The notes below the pieces were generated by a model. It did no database searches. It had not been told where the DNA came from and saw only the letters and a program-made list of their open reading frames with translations. Position numbers and translations under genes: made by a program. From positions 1 through 25,829 of IMG/VR virus record IMGVR_UViG_3300037199_000073: a stretch of 25,829 bases of DNA. One strand, given 5' to 3'. Shown here one piece after another: positions 3,821 to 22,799 of this stretch. The DNA comes from a virus. The first letter of the stretch is position 1. Each line of letters begins with the position of its first letter.

Positions 3821-4882
3821 CTAACGATTAGCCATCCGGCTCAGCTCATGCAATTTCAATTGGCGCACTATCACGTCCAACTTGGACCACTGAGCTGGGT
3901 TGGTGGCGTCAACAGAATGCACGCCCTCCATGCCTCGCCCCTGATCCCACACCCCAGTCCCGCCTTTACCTGTTCCTTGTGGGTGCGAGAACAAAAGCGC
4001 GATATGGTCCAACACATCTGGTTCGTTTTCGATGAGTAGCGTCGTGCCATCCTTCATCGTGACCTCAACGCCATCGCAGGTAAGGCCGGGAGAGGTGGAC
4101 ATGCGCTCGGTCTCAATCATCTCGGCGACGTCCATGTCGAAGACTTTGGCGATCGCCCAGACCTCATTGCCTCGGATGAACGGCAGAAACACCGAGCCGA
4201 TGTTGCGGTCCCGGTATTCCTTGGTGTTGAGCATGCTCTTGCGCGGGTGCTCGAGAATCACCGGCAGCCCGTTACAGCGCTGCAGGAACTCCTCATTCAG
4301 ATACAGCGCCGGGTCGCGCCACGGATATTCATCGTGAGACGGCCGGTAGGCGAGTCCCGTACCAGTGATTCGTATCGCCACCAGCAGCATGTTGCTGTAG
4401 CGCTGTGGGCTCGTAAGATCACCGGCCGCCATGGCCTTCGCGATGTCGAGTTCGTGCATGTCGAAGCGCGCAAGCGCCACGCGCGCGCCCGGGTGCAGCG
4501 GCAGCGTCAGGGCGGCGGCGCGACCGGCCCATGCAAACATGTCGTGCTCTTCGTTCAGCACCGGCACGAAGGCGTCTGCGGCGCCCAGAAACGTCGTGAA
4601 GTCCACGCCATCCTTGATGCGCCGCGTCCACGGCGCAAGTTTGCCGCTGTACTCGCCACCGGTTTCCTCGACAAACTCGCGGCGCGCGCAGTCTTCAGGA
4701 GATTCCTCGGCCTCGACACCGCCGCCCGGGAATGCCCACTCGCCGGCATGATCGCGCCCCGTACGTCTCAGCAGCAGCACGCGACCATCGGGCGCCGTCA
4801 GCATGATGCCGGCCGCGCGCAGCGGCTCGACTGACGCCGGCGGCACAGAGGGCGAGGTCGCGCCTGGCTCGCCGTCGCTCAC
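3821..4882 (-). CDS. Nudix hydrolase fused to DUF2213-type head maturation protease domain
   Basis: This 353-residue fusion uses a GTG start that overlaps the previous stop by four bases. Residues ~20-145 form a Nudix domain with an intact box at 54-76: Gly, five residues, Glu60, seven residues, then REFVEETGG, so metal-binding glutamates are present and hydrolase activity is likely. Residues ~155-310 match the DUF2213 family of phage head genes (TGLAYRPSHDEYPWRDPALY, LPVILEHP, MSTSPGL), usually considered the prohead protease or assembly protein. The last ~40 residues look like a linker and a helical tail. A Nudix enzyme could clean a nucleotide pool or bind a nucleoside diphosphate derivative; why it is attached to a head protein is unknown. 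Confidence is high for both domains and low for the substrate. Confidence 0.8.
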   Translation of the reverse strand: MSDGEPGATSPSVPPASVEPLRAAGIMLTAPDGRVLLLRRTGRDHAGEWAFPGGGVEAEESPEDCARREFVEETGGEYSGKLAPWTRRIKDGVDFTTFLGAADAFVPVLNEEHDMFAWAGRAAALTLPLHPGARVALARFDMHELDIAKAMAAGDLTSPQRYSNMLLVAIRITGTGLAYRPSHDEYPWRDPALYLNEEFLQRCNGLPVILEHPRKSMLNTKEYRDRNIGSVFLPFIRGNEVWAIAKVFDMDVAEMIETERMSTSPGLTCDGVEVTMKDGTTLLIENEPDVLDHIALLFSHPQGTGKGGTGVWDQGRGMEGVHSVDATNPAQWSKLDVIVRQLKLHELSRMANR

Positions 4883-5133: not shown

Positions 5134-6921
5134 CTAGGCGTTGATAGCAGCGCGCACCCGCGCAAGTTCCGCTTTGCCGGCGCCCGTCAGCATGCCGTCC
5201 GGCACGTCACGAAGTGCATACACGTACTCGTAGTGGCACGAGCAGTTTTTTGTTATTATACCTTCAGTGACATACCAGCCACTTTTGACCTGAAGGTTAT
5301 AGACATGGCCAGACCACGAATTCGTCTTGATCTTGACCGCTTTCGTAAGCTGCGCGCGGAAGGGAAATCGTTGCAACAACTCGCCGATATCTTTGGCGTC
5401 AGCCCCATGACCGCGCTCAAGGCGATCAAAGAATGCGGCCTCGACAAGCTCAGGCGCAACCATGCCAGACTCGACATTGACATTGCTGCTGTCGTGAGAG
5501 CCTACCAAGCCGGCGAAAGTGTCCTGGCCTTGGCCAAACGATTCCAGGTGAGCCGCGGAGCAATTATATACAGGCTCAATCAAGCCGGTATTGAACTGCG
5601 CGGGAACTCCGAAGCCGGCGCCATACGCATGGAGCATCTGGGACCTGAAGGTCGCAGCCAGATTACTGACGGCGCGCATAACTTTCTTAAAGGCCGCAAG
5701 CACACCGAACCGCAGCGGGCCGCGATTGCCGCCAAGAGAAAATTTATGGTCGGCTTTGGCGAGCGCGAACTCATCGAGGCGCTGCGGCAGCTCGGCTTGC
5801 CAGTCGATGGACAGACGCCGTGTGGCCGCTACGGCATCGACATAACCATCGGCCCCATCGCCGTGGAAGCTTGCGGGCTCAGTGCAAAGCGACTCACTGA
5901 TGCCAAGTTCTTGCAGCGTGCCAAATACATCCTGAATCATGGGTACGATTCGATCGTATTGATCTTTGCCAGCAGCCCACAGGCTTTGCTGGGGAACTTC
6001 CACGACCTCGTCGCCTTCTTGAATCGAGCCTATTGGCTTCCAGCCGCTGAGCGTAAGAACTGGGTGATTCGGTGTCGCACGCAGCGTTTTACCAGAAGCC
6101 GTAATAAGCTCGGTCAACTCACCGCTGTACCAGCGTCGATACGCCATCTCCACACGATCAGCGAATGGAATCCTTGACTCGCCTGGAAAACAGAACACGA
6201 GGAATCCAGGGGCCTCGATCTGATCGGTGTACTGGTGACCGTCGAGTTTTATCAGGCCGCGCTTGAGCGCCCAGTTGTCGCGGATGACGAAAAACGCGTG
6301 GCGCTTGTCCCAGGCGACGTGCTGCGGCCGCGCATCGTAATCCGGCAGGCCGCGGTGCACGTGCTTCCAGTAGCCGCCGAGCGCCCCGCCGTCGACCGCA
6401 ATGATGTCGTGGATCGCGGATACGAGCTTGTGGCCCTGATCGATAATGACGCGCGATTCCTCGTGGGCGAGTCCTGCGATTCCGCGGCGCACCTTCTCGG
6501 CCTCTTCGGCCTTATCCACCGCGTGGCTTCCGCCCGCCGGTATCGATGTCGCCCAGCCGGTAAAGCGCTGCAACGTGCGTTGCTTACTGGCGCGACGGCC
6601 GAACACAATGAGGTTCGCAGATGCCAGAATCCTTCGGTTCAGCTCCAGGCGCAGCCGCGGCGCGATCTGCTGCAGCGTGAATACCGAGACGCCCGGGTGC
6701 ACGCGCAGCAGCTGCGAAGGCCTGGCAACCGTGCGCGCAAAGATGCGCTCCAGGTGATCGGCGATACGCGCCTGCACCACGTGAGCCGGCAGAAACACGC
6801 TGCCGGCGGCCGCCTCTATGGCGGCGAGCCAGCGCTCCAGCCGCGCCTGACTGTCAAATCCGTGAACCGTGAAGTCGCGAACGGCATCGTTGATGACCGC
6901 GTAGAAATTGTTGCGCGCCAC
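5134..6921 (-). CDS. MuF-like minor head protein interrupted by an intein
   Basis: The 595-residue precursor starts with GTG at 6921, three bases after the portal stop. Residues 1-243 (N-extein) and 560-595 (C-extein, beginning CSCHYEYVYAL) resemble the Mu gpF-like minor head family: a helical region, then RVIIDQGHKLVSAIHD and a His/Trp-rich segment (GGYWKHVHR, RPQHVAWDKRHAFF). Residues 244-559 are an intein. Precise splicing would give a 279-residue protein in which the C-x-C motif follows PGFLVF. MuF-like proteins attach near the portal and help head assembly or go into the host with DNA. The gene lies just after the portal gene, as expected. The Cys-x-Cys at the junction is a conserved-looking site, a typical choice for inteins. 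Splicing is inferred. Confidence 0.85.
   Translation of the reverse strand: MARNNFYAVINDAVRDFTVHGFDSQARLERWLAAIEAAAGSVFLPAHVVQARIADHLERIFARTVARPSQLLRVHPGVSVFTLQQIAPRLRLELNRRILASANLIVFGRRASKQRTLQRFTGWATSIPAGGSHAVDKAEEAEKVRRGIAGLAHEESRVIIDQGHKLVSAIHDIIAVDGGALGGYWKHVHRGLPDYDARPQHVAWDKRHAFFVIRDNWALKRGLIKLDGHQYTDQIEAPGFLVFCFPGESRIPFADRVEMAYRRWYSGELTELITASGKTLRATPNHPVLTLSGWKPIGSIQEGDEVVEVPQQSLWAAGKDQYDRIVPMIQDVFGTLQELGISESLCTEPASFHGDGADGYVDAVAATRRLSIDWQAELPQRLDEFALAKADHKFSLGGNRGPLRFGVLAAFKKVMRAVSNLAATFRSQMLHAYGAGFGVPAQFNTGLIEPVYNCSAAHLESFGQGQDTFAGLVGSHDSSNVNVESGMVAPELVEAAFFDRLERGHGADAKDIGELLQRFPFRAQLTKAVKIKTNSWSGHVYNLQVKSGWYVTEGIITKNCSCHYEYVYALRDVPDGMLTGAGKAELARVRAAINA
5251..5259 (+). promoter_or_regulatory. 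Candidate extended -10 promoter of the antisense endonuclease
   Basis: The plus strand reads TGT-TATTAT in the AT-rich stretch CAGTTTTTTGTTATTATACC. This matches an extended -10 (TGn followed by a 5/6 match to TATAAT), while no good -35 is seen. Transcription would start near 5266 and leave a ~40-base leader before the ATG at 5305. The same bases encode the intein's last residues (Gly-Ile-Ile-Thr-Lys-Asn) on the minus strand, so the AT-rich codons AAA, ACA and ATA may be chosen for the promoter. Inferred, not proven. Confidence 0.4.
5305..6177 (+). CDS. Vsr-like homing endonuclease nested antisense inside the intein
   Basis: A 290-residue protein starts with ATG at 5305, eight bases after AAGG. 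Residues 11-45 (SLQQLADIFGVSPMTALKAI) and 60-95 (ALAKRFQVSRGAIIYRLNQ) are two helix-turn-helix units for DNA binding. Residues ~125-150 form a basic linker (KGRKHTEPQRAAIAAKR). Residues 151-225 resemble the Vsr-like PD-(D/E)xK core seen in homing enzymes of phage introns and inteins: ERELIEALRQLG, Gln170, YGIDI with Asp179, IAVEA with Glu188, then FLQRAKYILNHGYDSIVLIF. It would cut intein-free alleles of the minor head gene and drive intein homing. The whole gene lies within the intein on the opposite strand, and its codons are in register with the intein's. Catalysis and target are inferred; the open frame, RBS and motifs are seen. Confidence 0.85.
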   Translation: MARPRIRLDLDRFRKLRAEGKSLQQLADIFGVSPMTALKAIKECGLDKLRRNHARLDIDIAAVVRAYQAGESVLALAKRFQVSRGAIIYRLNQAGIELRGNSEAGAIRMEHLGPEGRSQITDGAHNFLKGRKHTEPQRAAIAAKRKFMVGFGERELIEALRQLGLPVDGQTPCGRYGIDITIGPIAVEACGLSAKRLTDAKFLQRAKYILNHGYDSIVLIFASSPQALLGNFHDLVAFLNRAYWLPAAERKNWVIRCRTQRFTRSRNKLGQLTAVPASIRHLHTISEWNP

Positions 6922-8472: not shown

Positions 8473-10488
8473 CTACGCCGTCTCTCGACGCCGCGCGGCC
8501 TCGTAGTGGCGCCGGCCGGCGCGACACGCGCTCTCAAGATCGCAGATCTCAGCCCACGCGGGCGCGCGAGGCGCGATCAGCTTGTTGATGAGCACCGGCA
8601 GCTGCGAGCGCGAGACGGTATTGGTCAGGTAAGTGCCGCCGTTGAGCTGGCAGTTCAGGCACCAGTTTTGCGTGAACGGTACGGATCCCACAAGATTACT
8701 GTCGGTGCTCTGTAGATTCTGATTCCAGATGTTGTTGTCGTAACCGAACAGCGTGGGCTGCGAGCAGCAGTTTTCGACCCCGACTTCAGCGAGCAAAAAC
8801 GGCTTGCCGACGCCCTGAAAGTAAACAGCCGCCTGCGCCGAATCGGTAAGGTTACTGATCACCTGTGACTGAGTGGTCGGGAAGTACATATCCACGCCAC
8901 CGATGTCCCAGAAGGTAGAGCCCGGGTCGTTGGCCGCCGTGCCCCCACCCCCGGAGTTCGAGACATAGGCATAGATCGCGTTGACGCCCTGCGCGCGGAA
9001 ATAGTTGACCACCTGCTGATACAGGGCAACGAACTGCGCATTGGTCGGGTTGGTGCCGCCGGTGCCGTTGGTGCCCCACCACCAGCTGCCGTGTCCGAGA
9101 TTGTTCTCCCAGAACGGTCGCACAATGAGCTTCGGGCCACCAGTGGTGATGGAATTCATCGCCGCGGCTTGCGCGCCGATGCCGCCGTTGCACGGCGAGA
9201 CACCGGTGTACGAAGTGCACCCGGACGCCCCGAACATGAAGATCTGGTAGTAGGAGTTGCCTACCGTGATGACGCCTGGGAACGCGTTATTGCTACCGCT
9301 GAAACCACACCCACCGGCCTGCGACGGGTCGGTCTCCAGCACCGACACCATCACGATGCCGCCGGCGGCAATCCAGCCGTTGGCGGTAGAGATCGCTTGT
9401 GAAGTAGAGGGGGCAGTCCCGGGGCATGTCCCCGGCGTATTCATGTAGATGCCGAGGATCGCTGGCGTCTTGCCGCTGTTGCTGCTGCTGGTGCAGGCAC
9501 CGCTGCTGCCGGCGGTGCACTGCAAGGTTGTCGCGGTCGCAGGCGTCGCGCTGCCCGAAGGCAGGAACTGATCGAGCGGGCTGGTGGAGAACTGGTCCCA
9601 CCACTGGCCACTCACCATGCTGCCGCTGTTACGCAGGCTGTTCATGTACGTCAGCAGGGACGTACCACCACTAGAGCCACCGCTGCTGGAGCTGCCCCCG
9701 CTGCTGGAGCTGCCGCTACTCGAACTTCCGCCGCCACCACCGCCCGCGGCCTTGAAGGCCGCGACATTCATTACCCAGAAGCCACTGCTTCCCTGGGTTG
9801 CGGTAGAGGCGTAAGTGCCGGTGCTGAATACATCCTTGTCCTGAAGGATGTTGCCACTGTTGGTGACGCGGATCGTGTAGCCGCTGCCGGCCGTCGGGGA
9901 CGATCCAAAGACGTAGGCGCCGCCCACCAGCAGCTCGACGCTCTGCGTGGTCGCGACATTGCCGCTACTGAGCGCGGTGCCAGTCGATGAGGCGGCCCCC
10001 GCGGCATGATCCAGCGGCGACGTTCTCGCGATGCCGCTGTATTCCGCGGCGCGCAGATTGATCTGCGGCGTCGTGGTATTGAAGACGACGGTGACAGAAT
10101 TGACGCCCGTGCTGGCCGAGCTGATATTGGGCGCGTAGTAGATGACCTGGCTGGGGCCGCCAGAATTACTGACGACGGCAGACGCGGCAGCGTAGGTGTT
10201 GCCCTGAGTATCGGTGACCGACGAGATGGTGGAGGTCGAGTTGTTCCACCCGATCGCCACGACATTCAGGTCGCCGGCGGCCTGCGCCCCGGTGAAGTTG
10301 ACGCTCAGGGTCGTGCCAGAACCGGTGTCGTTGCCGTTGCCCTGTATGAACTGCGGGGTGGCAAAGCCGGTGTAAGTCGTGAACAGTACGGGGGTCGTGC
10401 CTGCCCACGAGGCGCCGAGCATGGATGCGCCAATCGCATAGACCGCGATGGCCGCGCAGATCAGCGCGCTTTTCAGACGCTCGAGCAT
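8473..10488 (-). CDS. Exported modular glycoside hydrolase, GH26-like (mannanase-type)
   Basis: A 671-residue protein starts three bases after the previous stop. Residues 1-30 form a signal or anchor segment (LICAAIAVYAIGASMLGASWAG). Residues ~45-245 form a beta-sandwich domain common on surface proteins (VVAIGWNNSTSTISSVTD, LRAAEYSGI). Residues ~249-276 are a Gly/Ser linker. Residues ~280-640 look like a GH26 barrel: LGIYMN, GWIAAGGIVMVSVLETD, RPFWENNLGHGSWWWG with candidate acid/base Glu461, and KPFLLAEVG with candidate nucleophile Glu568. GH26 enzymes cut beta-mannans and related polymers, so this is a candidate capsule or exopolysaccharide depolymerase. Many cysteines (for example ENCCSQP and WCLNC) fit a protein that folds outside the cytoplasm. 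The Arg-rich tail (residues 650-671) is unlike the rest and may be a graft. Confidence 0.75.
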   Translation of the reverse strand: MLERLKSALICAAIAVYAIGASMLGASWAGTTPVLFTTYTGFATPQFIQGNGNDTGSGTTLSVNFTGAQAAGDLNVVAIGWNNSTSTISSVTDTQGNTYAAASAVVSNSGGPSQVIYYAPNISSASTGVNSVTVVFNTTTPQINLRAAEYSGIARTSPLDHAAGAASSTGTALSSGNVATTQSVELLVGGAYVFGSSPTAGSGYTIRVTNSGNILQDKDVFSTGTYASTATQGSSGFWVMNVAAFKAAGGGGGGSSSSGSSSSGGSSSSGGSSGGTSLLTYMNSLRNSGSMVSGQWWDQFSTSPLDQFLPSGSATPATATTLQCTAGSSGACTSSSNSGKTPAILGIYMNTPGTCPGTAPSTSQAISTANGWIAAGGIVMVSVLETDPSQAGGCGFSGSNNAFPGVITVGNSYYQIFMFGASGCTSYTGVSPCNGGIGAQAAAMNSITTGGPKLIVRPFWENNLGHGSWWWGTNGTGGTNPTNAQFVALYQQVVNYFRAQGVNAIYAYVSNSGGGGTAANDPGSTFWDIGGVDMYFPTTQSQVISNLTDSAQAAVYFQGVGKPFLLAEVGVENCCSQPTLFGYDNNIWNQNLQSTDSNLVGSVPFTQNWCLNCQLNGGTYLTNTVSRSQLPVLINKLIAPRAPAWAEICDLESACRAGRRHYEAARRRETA

Positions 10489-15158: not shown

Positions 15159-15526
15159 GGGGGATACATCGAAAGTGAAACCGTGGGGCTCGTGCCGCCG
15201 CTGAGCGCCGTCAGATTGCCGCGCACGTACGGGTAGTTCGGGACGGCGGTCGTGACCGCATAGGTCGCGTTGCTACCGCCCAGGTTGAAGCTCGCCAGGA
15301 TGCTCCAGCCGACGCTCGGGTCCTGCGTGACCTCGACATTGACGGCTGCTGTCGCGCCGCCGGTGACGCTCGCCTGGAAACTGGAACTCGGGTAGTTCTT
15401 CCATGAAAACTGCGCGCCGGCGCCGGTCGCGGTGACGGCTTTGAGCAGATAGGTGCCAGGGGATGCGGCGAGCACAGGCAACGCGAGCGCCAGCAGTGCG
15501 GCGAGCCGCGACAATCGTCTGATCAT
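15155..15526 (-). CDS. Small exported beta-rich protein, 123 aa
   Basis: I chose ATG at 15526, which overlaps the upstream stop by one base (TGATG) and follows GGAG; a start five codons further upstream is possible. Residues 1-21 are a signal peptide (MIRRLSRLAALLALALPVLA, then AS). The mature ~100 residues are beta-rich (SFQASVTGGATAAVNVEVTQ, VGWSILASFNLGG), like a small immunoglobulin-type or carbohydrate-binding fold. It ends with TGA overlapping the tailspike start. It may be a partner of the adjacent tailspike. No family is recognised. Confidence 0.65.
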   Translation of the reverse strand: MIRRLSRLAALLALALPVLAASPGTYLLKAVTATGAGAQFSWKNYPSSSFQASVTGGATAAVNVEVTQDPSVGWSILASFNLGGSNATYAVTTAVPNYPYVRGNLTALSGGTSPTVSLSMYPP

Positions 15527-17733
15527 CAATGCAGTCTCCACTGGGTTGCAATGTAAGTCGCGTTCGCACAGCCCGATGGCGGAATGTAGACGAGCTGCGC
15601 GTTGGCGGTGCGAAACTGATTGGCAGCGGTTGAGCTGCCGGACAGGCTCGGGAACTCCAGTAAATCGGTTGTGCTCTGATCGCAGATCAGAATCGTGAAG
15701 CCCTGCGGCACCCCGCTCCCCGACAGCCCGGTGATCGTGGTGCCGCCGGATGCCGCGGTGATCAGCAGCAGATTGGTAGTGCCGGCCGTATAGCCGGCGG
15801 GCGAATAATTGTTGACGCTCGATCCGGGAGCGGCGTCCGAGACCGCGCTTCCATACGGGTTGAACCCCGTGGCATTGGTCAGGTTGATCGCGGACGGCGT
15901 CCCGAGATTCGGTGTGACCAGCGTCGGTGACGTGGCCTGGACCACAGCTCCAGATCCGGTCGTGGTCGCGGCCACGATCTGATGCGATGAATTCGAGGCC
16001 AGTGCGGCCGAGCTGGCCGGGATCGCCGCGCCATTGATCTGTCCCACCACGGTCGCGAGCGAGCCAGCGGTGTTCGTCATATCCCCGGTGTGCGCAGGCT
16101 CTTGAGCCGCTTGCAGTGTCCCGGTCAATCCGGTGGTCTGAAGTCCCGTGCCGTTCGTCAGAGTCACGGATGATGGCGTGCCCAATGCCGGAGTCACTAA
16201 CGTGGGCGATGTCGCCTGGACAGTAGCGCCGGTTCCGGTGCTCGTGGTGTACGAAGTGACACCAGATCCTGCAGACGTCTGCACTACTCCGGATAGCGCC
16301 GGCAATGCAGTAGCAGGCAGCCCCGTGGCATTGGCTAAATTGATGGCAGAGGGCGTGCCGAGTGCCGGCGTCACCAATGTGGGCGACGTGGCCTCGACAA
16401 CAGATCCGCTGCCCGTGATTGAGGCGCCGACCAGCTGGCTTGAGGAATTCGAGGCCAGCACCGTTTGAGACGCCGGCACGACCGCGCCATTTACGCGTAC
16501 AACGGCCAGCGCAAGTGACCCCGCCGCATTGGTTGCATCCCCAGTGTGCGCGGGCTCTTGCGCAGCCTGCAGAGTTCCGGTCAGTCCCGTGGTCGGTAGG
16601 CCCGTGCCATTGGTCAACACTACCGCGCTCGGCGTACCCAGTGCCGGAGTCACAAGAGTAGGCGAAGTCGCCTCCACCACGGCGCCCGATCCCGTGACGG
16701 TGGCCGCGACAATTTGACGCGATGAGTTCGAGGCTAGCGCGCCGGTGCTCGCCGGCACCGCGGCTCCATTGACCTGCGCCACGACTGGATTCGGATAAGT
16801 GCCACTCAGGTCACCGGCCGCCGTGCCCGTGGGCGCAGCTCCCGTGATGCTGACCGATGCGGCAGCGGTGAGGCGGCCGTCGACGCCCACGGTGAACTGG
16901 CCCACGTGCGTGCCATCGCCGTAGCTCGCCGCGGTGACCGCAGTCGCCGGGATCGCGGCGGCCTGCAGGTTCGTGGCGTTGGCAAGATTCAGCGCTGAGG
17001 GCACGCCAAGGGCTGGCGTCACGAGCGTCGGCGAGGTCTGGAGCACGACCGGGCCTGAGCCAATGGTCGATGCGGCCGTCAACTGATGAGAGGAATTCGA
17101 TGCAATGACGGCCGCGCTCGCCGGCACGGCAGCGCCGTTGACGCCGGAAACCGCGACCACGCCGGCGTTCGATATAGAGGCATCCCCGCTCACGGTCTGC
17201 GGCGCGTAGGCGGTGCCGCCGGAATTGCCAATCGGGATCTGCGCGGACGTCGGCGCCGTCGATGAGTTCAATCCGCCCAAGCTCGTGCCGAGCGTACCCG
17301 TGATGCCGCCGACGCTCAGATTGATTGATGTCGCGGTCGAACCGGCCGATGTCGTGACCGGCCCCGTAAATGCCGGCAGCGTACTGAGCACGGTACCGCA
17401 TTGCCCATTGGCGTACAGCACGAGACTCGACAGCGTGCCGGTGCACAGGCTCCACTGCGCCGTGATGTCCGAGAAGATAACGCTGCCAGCGGTGTTCAGA
17501 TGACTGCCGACGCCGAACATCTGGTAGAGCTGCGCGAGCTGCAGATCGAGCTTACCGCCCACGACATACAGTTGATCGCCGCTATTCGTGCCCGACGGAC
17601 CGCTCGTCGTGCACAAGATATTGCCGGGCTGCTGACAATAGATCGGCGCGAACTGCGCGTGCGCGCGATCGACGTGCACGCCAAGCGCAAGCAACACCGC
17701 GACTGCGAGCAGTGCCCGCATGTAATGTCTCAA
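15526..17733 (-). CDS. Exported tail-fibre-like protein with tandem modules, 735 aa
   Basis: The TTG at 17733 has GGAGG seven bases upstream; ATG at 17721 (Met5) is an alternative. Either gives a signal peptide (MRALLAVAVLLALGVHVDRA, cleavage near AHA-Q). The body is built from repeated units: five copies of TSPTLVTP-x-LG-x-PS followed by LxNxTGL, and four copies of an (A/V)(V/I)PASxxxxASNSS unit. These repeats are typical of phage tail-fibre shafts. The C-terminus (NYSPAGYTAGTTNLLLITAA, then GFTILICDQSTTDLLEFPSL) looks like a compact beta domain that might cap the fibre. Export of a fibre is unexpected. Confidence 0.75.
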   Translation of the reverse strand: MRHYMRALLAVAVLLALGVHVDRAHAQFAPIYCQQPGNILCTTSGPSGTNSGDQLYVVGGKLDLQLAQLYQMFGVGSHLNTAGSVIFSDITAQWSLCTGTLSSLVLYANGQCGTVLSTLPAFTGPVTTSAGSTATSINLSVGGITGTLGTSLGGLNSSTAPTSAQIPIGNSGGTAYAPQTVSGDASISNAGVVAVSGVNGAAVPASAAVIASNSSHQLTAASTIGSGPVVLQTSPTLVTPALGVPSALNLANATNLQAAAIPATAVTAASYGDGTHVGQFTVGVDGRLTAAASVSITGAAPTGTAAGDLSGTYPNPVVAQVNGAAVPASTGALASNSSRQIVAATVTGSGAVVEATSPTLVTPALGTPSAVVLTNGTGLPTTGLTGTLQAAQEPAHTGDATNAAGSLALAVVRVNGAVVPASQTVLASNSSSQLVGASITGSGSVVEATSPTLVTPALGTPSAINLANATGLPATALPALSGVVQTSAGSGVTSYTTSTGTGATVQATSPTLVTPALGTPSSVTLTNGTGLQTTGLTGTLQAAQEPAHTGDMTNTAGSLATVVGQINGAAIPASSAALASNSSHQIVAATTTGSGAVVQATSPTLVTPNLGTPSAINLTNATGFNPYGSAVSDAAPGSSVNNYSPAGYTAGTTNLLLITAASGGTTITGLSGSGVPQGFTILICDQSTTDLLEFPSLSGSSTAANQFRTANAQLVYIPPSGCANATYIATQWRLH
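15886..17037 (-). repeat. Five degenerate direct repeats in the fibre-like gene
   Basis: About 48-base units coding for the SPTLVTP-x-LG-x-PS segment recur near 15886-15933, 16166-16213, 16341-16388, 16621-16668 and 16990-17037. Most differences are at third codon positions. The spacing is about 280, 175, 280 and 369 bases, so the 280-base module appears twice. The pattern fits growth of the fibre shaft by unequal recombination. Confidence 0.7.
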
Positions 17734-20842: not shown

Positions 20843-21557
20843 CCGGCGGCGCATCATCGGCGATGGGCATTCCCAGAAGACGCATCAAAACATGACCGTT
20901 TTGATACCTCAATTGAGGTAGCTCAAACGTCTTCTGAAAGCGCTCGACTTCATCGGGCGTCTTGAAAACGAACACGAGGAAAAACTCGTTGGCAGCCTTG
21001 TCGGCGTTTGCCTTGGTGATGCTGTCGTACTGCGAGGCCACGCTCGCCATCTTCTGCGCGAAGGCGGCCAGATCCTCGCGCCGATTGTCGAAGACGTCGG
21101 TGCCAAAATAATTCACCATGTCGGTATGCGAGAAGCCGGCGCCCTCGAGCGTCACGGCCTCATCATCGAACATCGTGCGCAGACGCTCCCAGTCCCACTC
21201 GCCCATCGCCTGATCGTTGTTGAGCAGGAGGTTGAGTTCTTTTTCGCGCGCCTCATCGACATCGATGACCGCGACTTTGAGGGTGTAGTCGCTGCTGCCT
21301 TGAATCGAATCCAACTGCGCCATGCGTTGGTGGCCTGATACAAGTGTGCCGGTGCGTTTATTCCACACTGGCGGCGCCACCATGCCATGACGCTTCAGCG
21401 CTATGCGCAACTGTTGACGTGCGGCTTCTTTCAGCACCCTTGGATTATAGGCAGCGCCTTTAAGGTCTCGCCGATTCATTTCGACGACATCGTAGTTTTC
21501 AAGGCCAGCATCGCGCAAAGACGAGGCCTTCTTTACCGGCTCAATAGCCTCAGACAT
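20763..21557 (-). CDS. ParB-like nuclease-fold protein
   Basis: 264 residues. The ParB/Srx-like domain spans ~20-130: VVEMNRRDLKGAAYNPRVLK, LRIALKRHGMVAPPVWN and the signature SGHQR (74-78), then VAVIDVDEAREKELNLLLNN. Residues ~130-225 are a helical domain. The tail (TRKKAAADSSPPAQSDSASG) is disordered and encoded antisense to the ASCH gene's end. Phage proteins of this kind often accompany DNA methylases or other modification enzymes, and can be DNA-binding or nucleases/NTPases. Its start overlaps the HNH gene by eight bases. No partner helix-turn-helix typical of partition ParB is obvious, so plasmid-style partition is not favoured. Confidence 0.8.
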   Translation of the reverse strand: MSEAIEPVKKASSLRDAGLENYDVVEMNRRDLKGAAYNPRVLKEAARQQLRIALKRHGMVAPPVWNKRTGTLVSGHQRMAQLDSIQGSSDYTLKVAVIDVDEAREKELNLLLNNDQAMGEWDWERLRTMFDDEAVTLEGAGFSHTDMVNYFGTDVFDNRREDLAAFAQKMASVASQYDSITKANADKAANEFFLVFVFKTPDEVERFQKTFELPQLRYQNGHVLMRLLGMPIADDAPPVRRSAGTRKKAAADSSPPAQSDSASG

Positions 21558-22098
21558 TGACGTGTCTCCACGTCTTTCGCGCCCTGACCTGTGTGACTGT
21601 CGTTTTGCTTATGCCTAACATACCGGCCAAAGCGCGCGTCGATAACCCGGATAGCAAGATCTTGCGCACCTTACTCTCATCCAGTTTAGCCATCCCATGA
21701 TCTTCTCCGCGACGATTCATCCCATACCCGGTTGAGCTTCGGCGGTCAGCTGCATTCTCTAGCGGCGTACCCCACGCAAGATTTCTCAGCGCATTGTCTG
21801 CGCGATCATTGTTCTTGTGTCGAGTCTCCTGCCCCGCAGGACGAGGACCGATAAATGCCGTGAGGACTAATTTGTGAATGAAAACGTCAAGCCTTTGACG
21901 TTCCCCGCCGACGTAACGAAACAGAGCCACTTTGACGTAGCCTTTGTATGTCTGGCGCGCCTTCAGTGGCTTCCACTCTGTGCCGATGCCGCGACACCCG
22001 ACAGCCCCTACAGTGGTGCGATGCCATGCGCTCCACACTGAACCATCGTCACCGACGCGATAGCCAGGGAATCCTTCGATCTCGCGATATTCAGTCAT
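21550..22098 (-). CDS. HNH homing endonuclease with NUMOD4 and C-terminal helix-turn-helix
   Basis: A 182-residue enzyme. NUMOD4 lies at residues 4-24 (YREIEGFPGYRVGDDGSVWS). The HNH_3 domain has IHKLVLTAFIG (His75), RHKNNDRADNALRNLAW (His94, Asn96, Asn97, Asn102). A C-terminal HTH (~138-172, STRALAGMLGISKTTVTQ) replaces the usual intron-encoded NUMOD helix and probably aids DNA recognition. It is a free-standing selfish gene inserted between the PP-loop and ParB-like genes with overlaps of four and eight bases, so its neighbours remain co-translated. It probably cuts a nearby sequence in phages that lack it. Confidence 0.9.
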   Translation of the reverse strand: MTEYREIEGFPGYRVGDDGSVWSAWHRTTVGAVGCRGIGTEWKPLKARQTYKGYVKVALFRYVGGERQRLDVFIHKLVLTAFIGPRPAGQETRHKNNDRADNALRNLAWGTPLENAADRRSSTGYGMNRRGEDHGMAKLDESKVRKILLSGLSTRALAGMLGISKTTVTQVRARKTWRHVNV

Positions 22099-22799
22099 GA
22101 CGCCATTTTAGCAGAGGCGCGCTCACCCAGGCCGAACCATTCATGGCGTCGCACAATGGCCTCCGTGTAGGGAAACAACCCGCGCACACGCTCGTAGTCG
22201 GCCGGGTGATGCCGGTACAGGTGAATGATCTCGTAGTCGATCAGATCCACCGCGGAGCTATCCCCGGTCTCACCGTCTGGGATCGGAATGTTGCGGGCCT
22301 TCAGATAGCTTAAGACTTCCCAGCTCTTCCAATGCTTGAGCGGAAAGTAGAAGTCCGACTTCGTGCGCTTCTGGTTCGCCATGCGCATACGGCGGAACGG
22401 GCCGTCAGCTTTCTTCTCGCCGGTGAGCACGAGCGTGGCGCCACTCTCACCCTTGAGCCAGTTATAGACCTTGCGCTCGGTGAAATCCTCAAGCAGACCA
22501 TCGAGCTCTTTGTGCTCATCGCAGTAGAAGCCGTCGCGCAGATAGCCGATGACTTCCATCATCGGGATGCGAATCACGGTGACGTTGAACAGCTGCTCGG
22601 CGCGCCTGACTTTGGCCTCTTCAAACTCCAGGCCGGGGACAAAATAGTTGAACCAGCACACCACTTCATCGAAGAAGCGCAGCGCGATATCCACCGTGGC
22701 GAGCGAATCCTTGCCGCCAGACAGGCCTACCAGAACTCGTTTATGCGTGAGCGCGAGCTGCTGGCATTCCGCAATCGTGTCGGCAAGGTGGTTGGCCAC
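22095..22799 (-). CDS. PAPS-reductase-like PP-loop ATPase
   Basis: 234 residues from a GTG start with no good ribosome site. The PP-loop motif SGGKDS (residues 27-32, in VLVGLSGGKDSLA) binds ATP or PAPS. Then come VVCWFNYFVPGLEFEEAKVR, VTVIRIPMMEVIGYLRDGFY and ATLVLTGEKKADGPFRRMRM, all in the order expected for the family. The C-terminal Cys motif of true CysH enzymes (ECGxHG type) is absent, so sulfate assimilation is unlikely. Phage relatives might adenylate or thiolate bases, as in tRNA thiolation or phosphorothioate systems. It sits in an operon with a ParB-like gene; that pairing hints at DNA modification but no Dnd partner is seen. Confidence 0.85.
   Translation of the reverse strand: MANHLADTIAECQQLALTHKRVLVGLSGGKDSLATVDIALRFFDEVVCWFNYFVPGLEFEEAKVRRAEQLFNVTVIRIPMMEVIGYLRDGFYCDEHKELDGLLEDFTERKVYNWLKGESGATLVLTGEKKADGPFRRMRMANQKRTKSDFYFPLKHWKSWEVLSYLKARNIPIPDGETGDSSAVDLIDYEIIHLYRHHPADYERVRGLFPYTEAIVRRHEWFGLGERASAKMAS

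Follow-up and report, generated by a model that had tools for sequence, protein, structure and literature searches.

A MuF-like head gene on the minus strand (595 aa) of a 25.8-kb IMG/VR virus record (IMGVR_UViG_3300037199_000073, positions 1 to 25,829, hereafter the window) is interrupted by what we interpret, with a probability of about 0.9, as a mobile intein coded on both strands, with a Hint splicing domain on the minus strand and a homing nuclease on the plus strand (Table 1). The two conserved frames, the location of selection on each of them, the nuclease homology and fold, and the natural polymorphism of the insertion site are observed directly; expression, DNA cleavage, protein splicing and cleavage-driven insertion are inferred. 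In the proposed mechanism, the minus strand would supply a Hint domain that continues the reading frame of the head gene, which would allow the host protein to be restored post-translationally, and nearly the same DNA read on the plus strand would supply a nuclease composed of a helix-turn-helix (HTH) array and a Vsr-like domain, translated from a start codon that, like its ribosome-binding site, is the complement of block F of the intein. Alleles without the intein would be the substrate of this nuclease, cut at the insertion site (in most cases the NC[RK]C codons of a MuF-like gene), and the cassette would be copied in when the break is repaired from an occupied allele.

Table 1. Coordinates of the head gene, its intein and the opposite-strand elements in the window
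Feature	Position	Strand	Basis
MuF-like minor head gene with intein	5134..6921	-	phrog_324 head morphogenesis E 6.5e-7; phrog_15127 head protein E 2.5e-48
N-extein	6193-6921	-	
C-extein	5134-5244	-	
Intein, 316 aa, CFPGES ... IITKN	5245..6192	-	Pfam Intein_splicing E 1.6e-7; family alignments
Intein block B, TPNHP	6061..6075	-	alignment
Intein block F, HVYNL; endonuclease ATG lies opposite its His codon	5293..5307	-	
Intein block G, GIITKN	5245..5262	-	
FHGD motif of the sense frame, opposite IAVE of the antisense frame; both fixed	5857..5868	-	alignments, per-codon entropy
Antisense homing-endonuclease gene (putative), 290 aa, ATG start	5305..6177	+	ORF, homologues, codon test, predicted structure
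First HTH unit (aa 10-43)	5332..5433	+	HTH_7 E 1.7e-9; predicted helices
Second HTH unit (aa 60-93)	5482..5583	+	HTH_28, HTH_58 matches; predicted helices
Vsr-like nuclease domain (aa 148-248)	5746..6048	+	VIA-align, profile match, conservation
Shine-Dalgarno-like GAAGG, 8 nt before ATG	5292..5296	+	sequence; family pattern
Possible extended -10, TGTTATTAT	5251..5259	+	family codon bias; suggestive only

The MuF assignment of the window extein rests on its match to phrog_324 (E 6.5e-7) and on Phage_Mu_F matches of other family members; no Pfam match was obtained for the window N-extein. The first residue of the intein is Cys at 6192 and the last is Asn at 5245 (LVF/CFPGES ... IITKN/CSC); the intein satisfies the criteria for a Cys1-type Hint element, namely Cys1, block B TxxH, a terminal Asn, Cys+1 and a frame continuous with both exteins, with a Pfam Intein_splicing score slightly below the curated cut-off (E 1.6e-7). 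Because Lys rather than the usual His precedes the terminal Asn, splicing of this copy is not guaranteed; the penultimate His is also missing in other inteins of the family. In the sense-frame model, the Hint core is confident (pLDDT >90) and a partly confident stretch extends to about residue 125, followed by pLDDT values of 36-50 for most of residues 128-247, so that the sense region opposite the endonuclease is predicted to be mostly disordered.

A first-pass annotation, made from the letters alone, had recognised in the minor head gene an intein with Hint blocks A, B and F but without an endonuclease in its own frame, and had placed on the opposite strand a 290-codon gene (5305-6177) with a ribosome-binding site, two HTH units and a Vsr-like core. 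Both descriptions hold: Cys1, TPNH and HVYNL are present, Pfam and profile searches matched no endonuclease family in the sense frame of the intein gene, and the antisense gene was confirmed with all the named elements, including GAAGG. Its ORF lies wholly within the intein in codon-on-codon antisense register, with the ATG 60 nt from the C-terminal end of the intein, as had been stated, and the stop 15 nt, not 13 nt, from the N-terminal end. Searched separately, the two products gave a Hint match on the minus strand, and HTH families and a profile match to the homing endonuclease I-Bth0305I (3r3p, E 2e-4) on the plus strand; the proposed division into a splicing-type and a nuclease-type product is thus supported by domain and fold evidence, with the activities themselves inferred.

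The AF2 model of the antisense protein (mean pLDDT 92.8) contains two HTH units and a nuclease domain, for which a Vsr-like fold is confidently predicted. Structural comparison by VIA-align ranked Vsr itself first (1cw0, Z 10.9, 110 aligned, 2.6 A), NGO0050 third (3hrl, Z 9.7) and I-Bth0305I fourth (3r3p, Z 9.0); the profile search supports 3hrl as well as 3r3p, and Pfam MTES_1575 is matched by 25/89 family endonucleases. The Foldseek ranking, headed by SurE at poor rmsd and without any match at E <0.001, was not relied on by itself. Conserved residues of the nuclease domain (E153, Q170, Y176, D179, A186, V187 and E188) include the core YGIDI...IAVEA, in which the window protein has Gly in place of the nearly invariant Asn177 of the family. 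With respect to the EDxHD motif, E153, D179 and E188 are conserved, and no conserved His-Asp pair is apparent in alignments (active sites were not superposed).

At the codon usage of the GC-rich window, a 290-codon antisense frame would stay open by chance with a probability of about 0.05, and ORF length alone is therefore weak evidence; in the AT-rich Aaphi23 the corresponding probability is 3e-5. The evidence beyond chance comes from conservation across phages, selection seen at the antisense wobble position, HTH and nuclease homology, and codon bias at the start site. A tblastn search of 50,697 phage records with the antisense protein returned 112 records, all at <60% identity. In each of the 12 records examined, an intein-bearing gene contains the match on its opposite strand (most of these genes are head genes; that of Rctr197k encodes a deaminase). 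The start codon is exactly 60 nt from the C-terminal end of the intein (66 in Rctr197k), and between the stop and the N-terminal end there are 3 to 45 nt. When IMG/VR was scanned at the DNA level for the core motif YNxD...GxxAVE of the endonuclease, at least 120 loci were recovered, and a query with the Aaphi23 homologue yielded 16 further loci, some overlapping; the window endonuclease or the Lennon endonuclease (see below) as sole query found no related loci in IMG/VR. By HMM, the endonuclease is present in 149/149 loci examined (120 of them gathered by the endonuclease core motif alone), with an opposite-strand intein N-domain in 146 and C-domain in 134; the three loci without an N-domain match sit at contig or locus ends. 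The same arrangement is found in 12/12 loci of bacterial genomes (including Paenibacillus, Mycolicibacterium, Gordonia, Chloroflexi and Zixibacteriota), and the antisense frame, whose openness in relatives had been proposed as a check, is found in every locus of both sets. Interrupted host genes encode MuF-like proteins, Phage_min_cap2, dCMP deaminase and terminase, and the commonest insertion site is NC[RK]C. No free-standing copy of this Vsr-like endonuclease was seen among loci found with the AVE-core motif, and divergent free-standing relatives would be missed because the scan requires that core. One Paenibacillus chromosome (sp. P25) carries two copies of the antisense-endonuclease intein (L156 and L162). 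One locus (L124) has a stop in the intein frame across the endonuclease region with the antisense frame open, representing either a pseudogene or a sequencing error.

The register of the two frames, in which antisense wobble falls on sense position 1 and sense wobble on antisense position 1, allows selection to be assigned to a strand. Across 29 non-overlapping pairs, differences at sense positions 1/2/3 numbered 2457/1067/1697 in the intein middle; the Hint regions gave 452/203/596 (N-terminal) and 113/81/230 (C-terminal), and the exteins 365/272/745. Position 1 exceeded position 3 in the intein middle in 28/29 pairs, with one tie. Substitutions there peak at the antisense wobble, and selection in this region therefore acts on the antisense protein. 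Thus, the antisense frame is under purifying selection, and in the exteins and Hint blocks selection acts on the sense frame. The Fisher p of 4e-55 for middle vs. extein is to be taken as an effect size, since lineages share ancestry and p-values overstate the evidence when loci are related; codon counts used automatic Cys1 boundaries, some of them off by several codons, and were not recounted with corrected boundaries. Per-codon entropy is in line with this partition, with antisense constraint at endonuclease codons 13 to about 190 and sense constraint at block B (242-277). At IAVE/FHGD both strands are fixed and even the wobble positions are nearly so; being constrained on both strands, FHGD looks dual-coded, and the intein itself probably uses this motif, in a role that remains unexplained.

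Codon choice around the start site of the endonuclease provides a further trace of the opposite frame. Of 90 endonucleases, 67 begin 60 nt from the intein end and 80 have an ATG start; opposite the start codon is the block F His, and opposite the Shine-Dalgarno sequence is Asn-Leu. The block F His is CAT in 62/67 (CAT makes up 39% in exteins) and the Leu is CTC in 51/67 (22%), a bias with p about 1e-20, uncorrected for relatedness or for the several positions tested. Judging from these codon frequencies, the start codon and Shine-Dalgarno sequence of the putative endonuclease are what skews the codons of block F. An antisense -10 element in block G is no more than a suggestion: codons there lean to antisense TGnTATAAT, at least 7 of 8 positions agreeing in 14/63 loci vs. 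2.2 expected from synonymous draws, in a test that was devised after inspection of the upstream sequences and in which neighbouring registers are also in some excess. A scan for the sigma-70 consensus found no promoter. A terminator-like hairpin with a T-run (window 5227-5242, plus strand), just upstream of the endonuclease start region, is not above chance (1 found vs. 1.5 expected in shuffles).

Natural variation at the insertion site is most evident in Gordonia Vividuovirus, where MuF exteins are 97-99% identical and three states occur at the same codon boundary: empty alleles (Geodirt, Rofo, Ailee), the 948-nt antisense-endonuclease intein (Vivi2 and Affeca, with Fosterous and Angelicage assigned by insert length) and an unrelated 825-nt intein (Lennon, Nordenberg and Barsten, with Sitar assigned by match). 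The gene thus fulfils one criterion for a homing endonuclease, namely location inside a mobile element that is present or absent at one exact site in close relatives. The intein has also been transferred recently between phage genera: coliphage Snoke and Salmonella phage SGPC have 95.6% identical intein DNA and N-exteins 74% identical in protein, and close Salmonella and E. coli relatives (Jerseyvirus) without the intein are common. Very probably it is the antisense enzyme that spreads the intein, with cleavage being inferred.

The unrelated Lennon-type intein (L151:1201-2025; also L154 and L168), at the same MuF site, has an antisense ORF of its own (L151 1312-1902, minus strand) with a LAGLIDADG-like motif, AAYVAAFIDGEG. 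Ordinary endonuclease genes that stand free in Cyanophage PP and Caulobacter phages match this ORF (tblastn E 2e-6 to 8e-6). Lennon and Barsten differ at sense positions 1/2/3 by 51/6/16 inside the antisense ORF, compared with 12/17/34 beyond its limits (Fisher 1.5e-7). Antisense selection is better established here than the class of nuclease, since the Pfam LAGLIDADG_3 match of the product is weak (E 0.26). With the Vsr-like and the unrelated Lennon-type cases taken together, the antisense arrangement appears to have arisen at least twice.

Several other explanations deserve consideration. A conserved sense middle domain (FHGD...VDVV), combined with codon complementarity and GC-rich usage, might leave the opposite frame open and seemingly conserved as a by-product; the exact codon-complement register, the chance openness of about 0.05 in the window, and the double constraint on FHGD within the partly confident stretch of the sense model are all compatible with this. 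We consider it extremely improbable, given that substitutions in the middle peak at the antisense wobble in 28/29 pairs, that openness in Aaphi23 has a chance of only 3e-5, that the antisense product is homologous to unrelated HTH and nuclease proteins, that start-site codons are biased, and that the sense middle is predicted to be mostly disordered. Absence of homologues, neutral evolution of the antisense frame or lack of nuclease similarity would have refuted the first-pass annotation; each was likewise examined, and none of them held.

Even a real and selected antisense gene could encode a DNA-binding regulator or a repair or defence nuclease instead of a homing enzyme, as HTH arrays are the strongest family matches and Vsr itself is a repair nuclease. 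Such a function is very unlikely for a gene that is inside inteins in every locus found, has conserved nuclease residues, is present or absent at a single exact site and has recently moved between phage genera. That the window copy is a dead relic, no longer homing or splicing though its ancestors did, is unlikely: Lys replaces His before the terminal Asn, and Gly occupies the position of N177, but both frames are fully open, Y176, D179, A186, E188, C1, H43 and N316 are retained, and other members also lack the penultimate His.

The endonuclease of a textbook mobile intein has no source other than the spliced precursor, of which it is a part, and in the "fractured genes" of split inteins a Vsr-related EDxHD endonuclease is found on the same strand between the split-intein halves. 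The two-strand intein resembles canonical mobile inteins in that a Hint domain surrounds an endonuclease-coding region and homing into intein-free alleles is inferred, and it differs in that their endonuclease is an in-frame precursor domain, whereas here it is a separate antisense gene. I-Bth0305I and the fractured-gene enzymes share the Vsr-like catalytic domain and the association with splicing elements in phages, but they are read on the same strand, in introns or between split-intein halves, whereas the present enzyme carries an HTH array and is coded antisense to an intein that is intact. Endonuclease domains of inteins have been described as always located at one conserved insertion site (PMC6801210). 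Nuclear group I introns with antisense homing endonuclease genes are known (PMC9548176), and likewise combine a self-splicing element with a homing gene on the opposite strand; in these, splicing occurs at the RNA level, in myxomycete rDNA, with the gene in a peripheral loop, whereas the present element splices at the protein level, occurs in phages and has the endonuclease gene entirely within its own coding sequence. ShiLan-type insertions in phage methylases contain hidden out-of-frame HNH genes (PMC11855218), similarly overlapping an open insertion in a phage gene and found via other frames, but on the same strand, without a splicing domain, of the HNH class and without a detectable ribosome-binding site. 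The inteins of Snoke and KMB36 have been noted in public annotation and in PMC11162368, with the antisense gene unmentioned. No earlier report of an antisense endonuclease in an intein was found in open-access literature (subscription papers were not covered), and this recurrent intein architecture is apparently unreported.

Overall, it is fairly probable that these elements constitute a new architectural class of mobile intein, selfish cassettes coded on both strands, which use one strand for splicing and the opposite one for a complete nuclease expression unit, with its start site in block F and possibly its -10 in block G. In this reading, the class originated two or more times, with two unrelated kinds of nuclease (Vsr-like and LAGLIDADG-like), and escaped notice since only the host gene is visible in annotations. 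Antisense coding would free endonuclease expression from the late head gene, and it could explain inteins that are seemingly endonuclease-free yet clearly mobile. A natural near-complete opposite-strand overlap, codon-on-codon, with selection visible on both strands in many diverse phages, is also a strong model in which to study overlapping coding and look for hidden homing enzymes.

Other minus-strand genes of the window include a DUF2213 phage protein fused to a NUDIX domain (3821-4882), a phage gene with a Glyco_hydro_26 domain (8473-10488, E 8e-11) adjoining a portal-like gene, and an ordinary HNH_3 endonuclease gene (21550-22098) adjoining a PAPS-reductase-like gene (22095-22799). A further minus-strand gene (15526-17733) encodes a 735-residue protein with many TSPTLVTPALGTPS-like repeat units, perhaps a fibre or surface protein.
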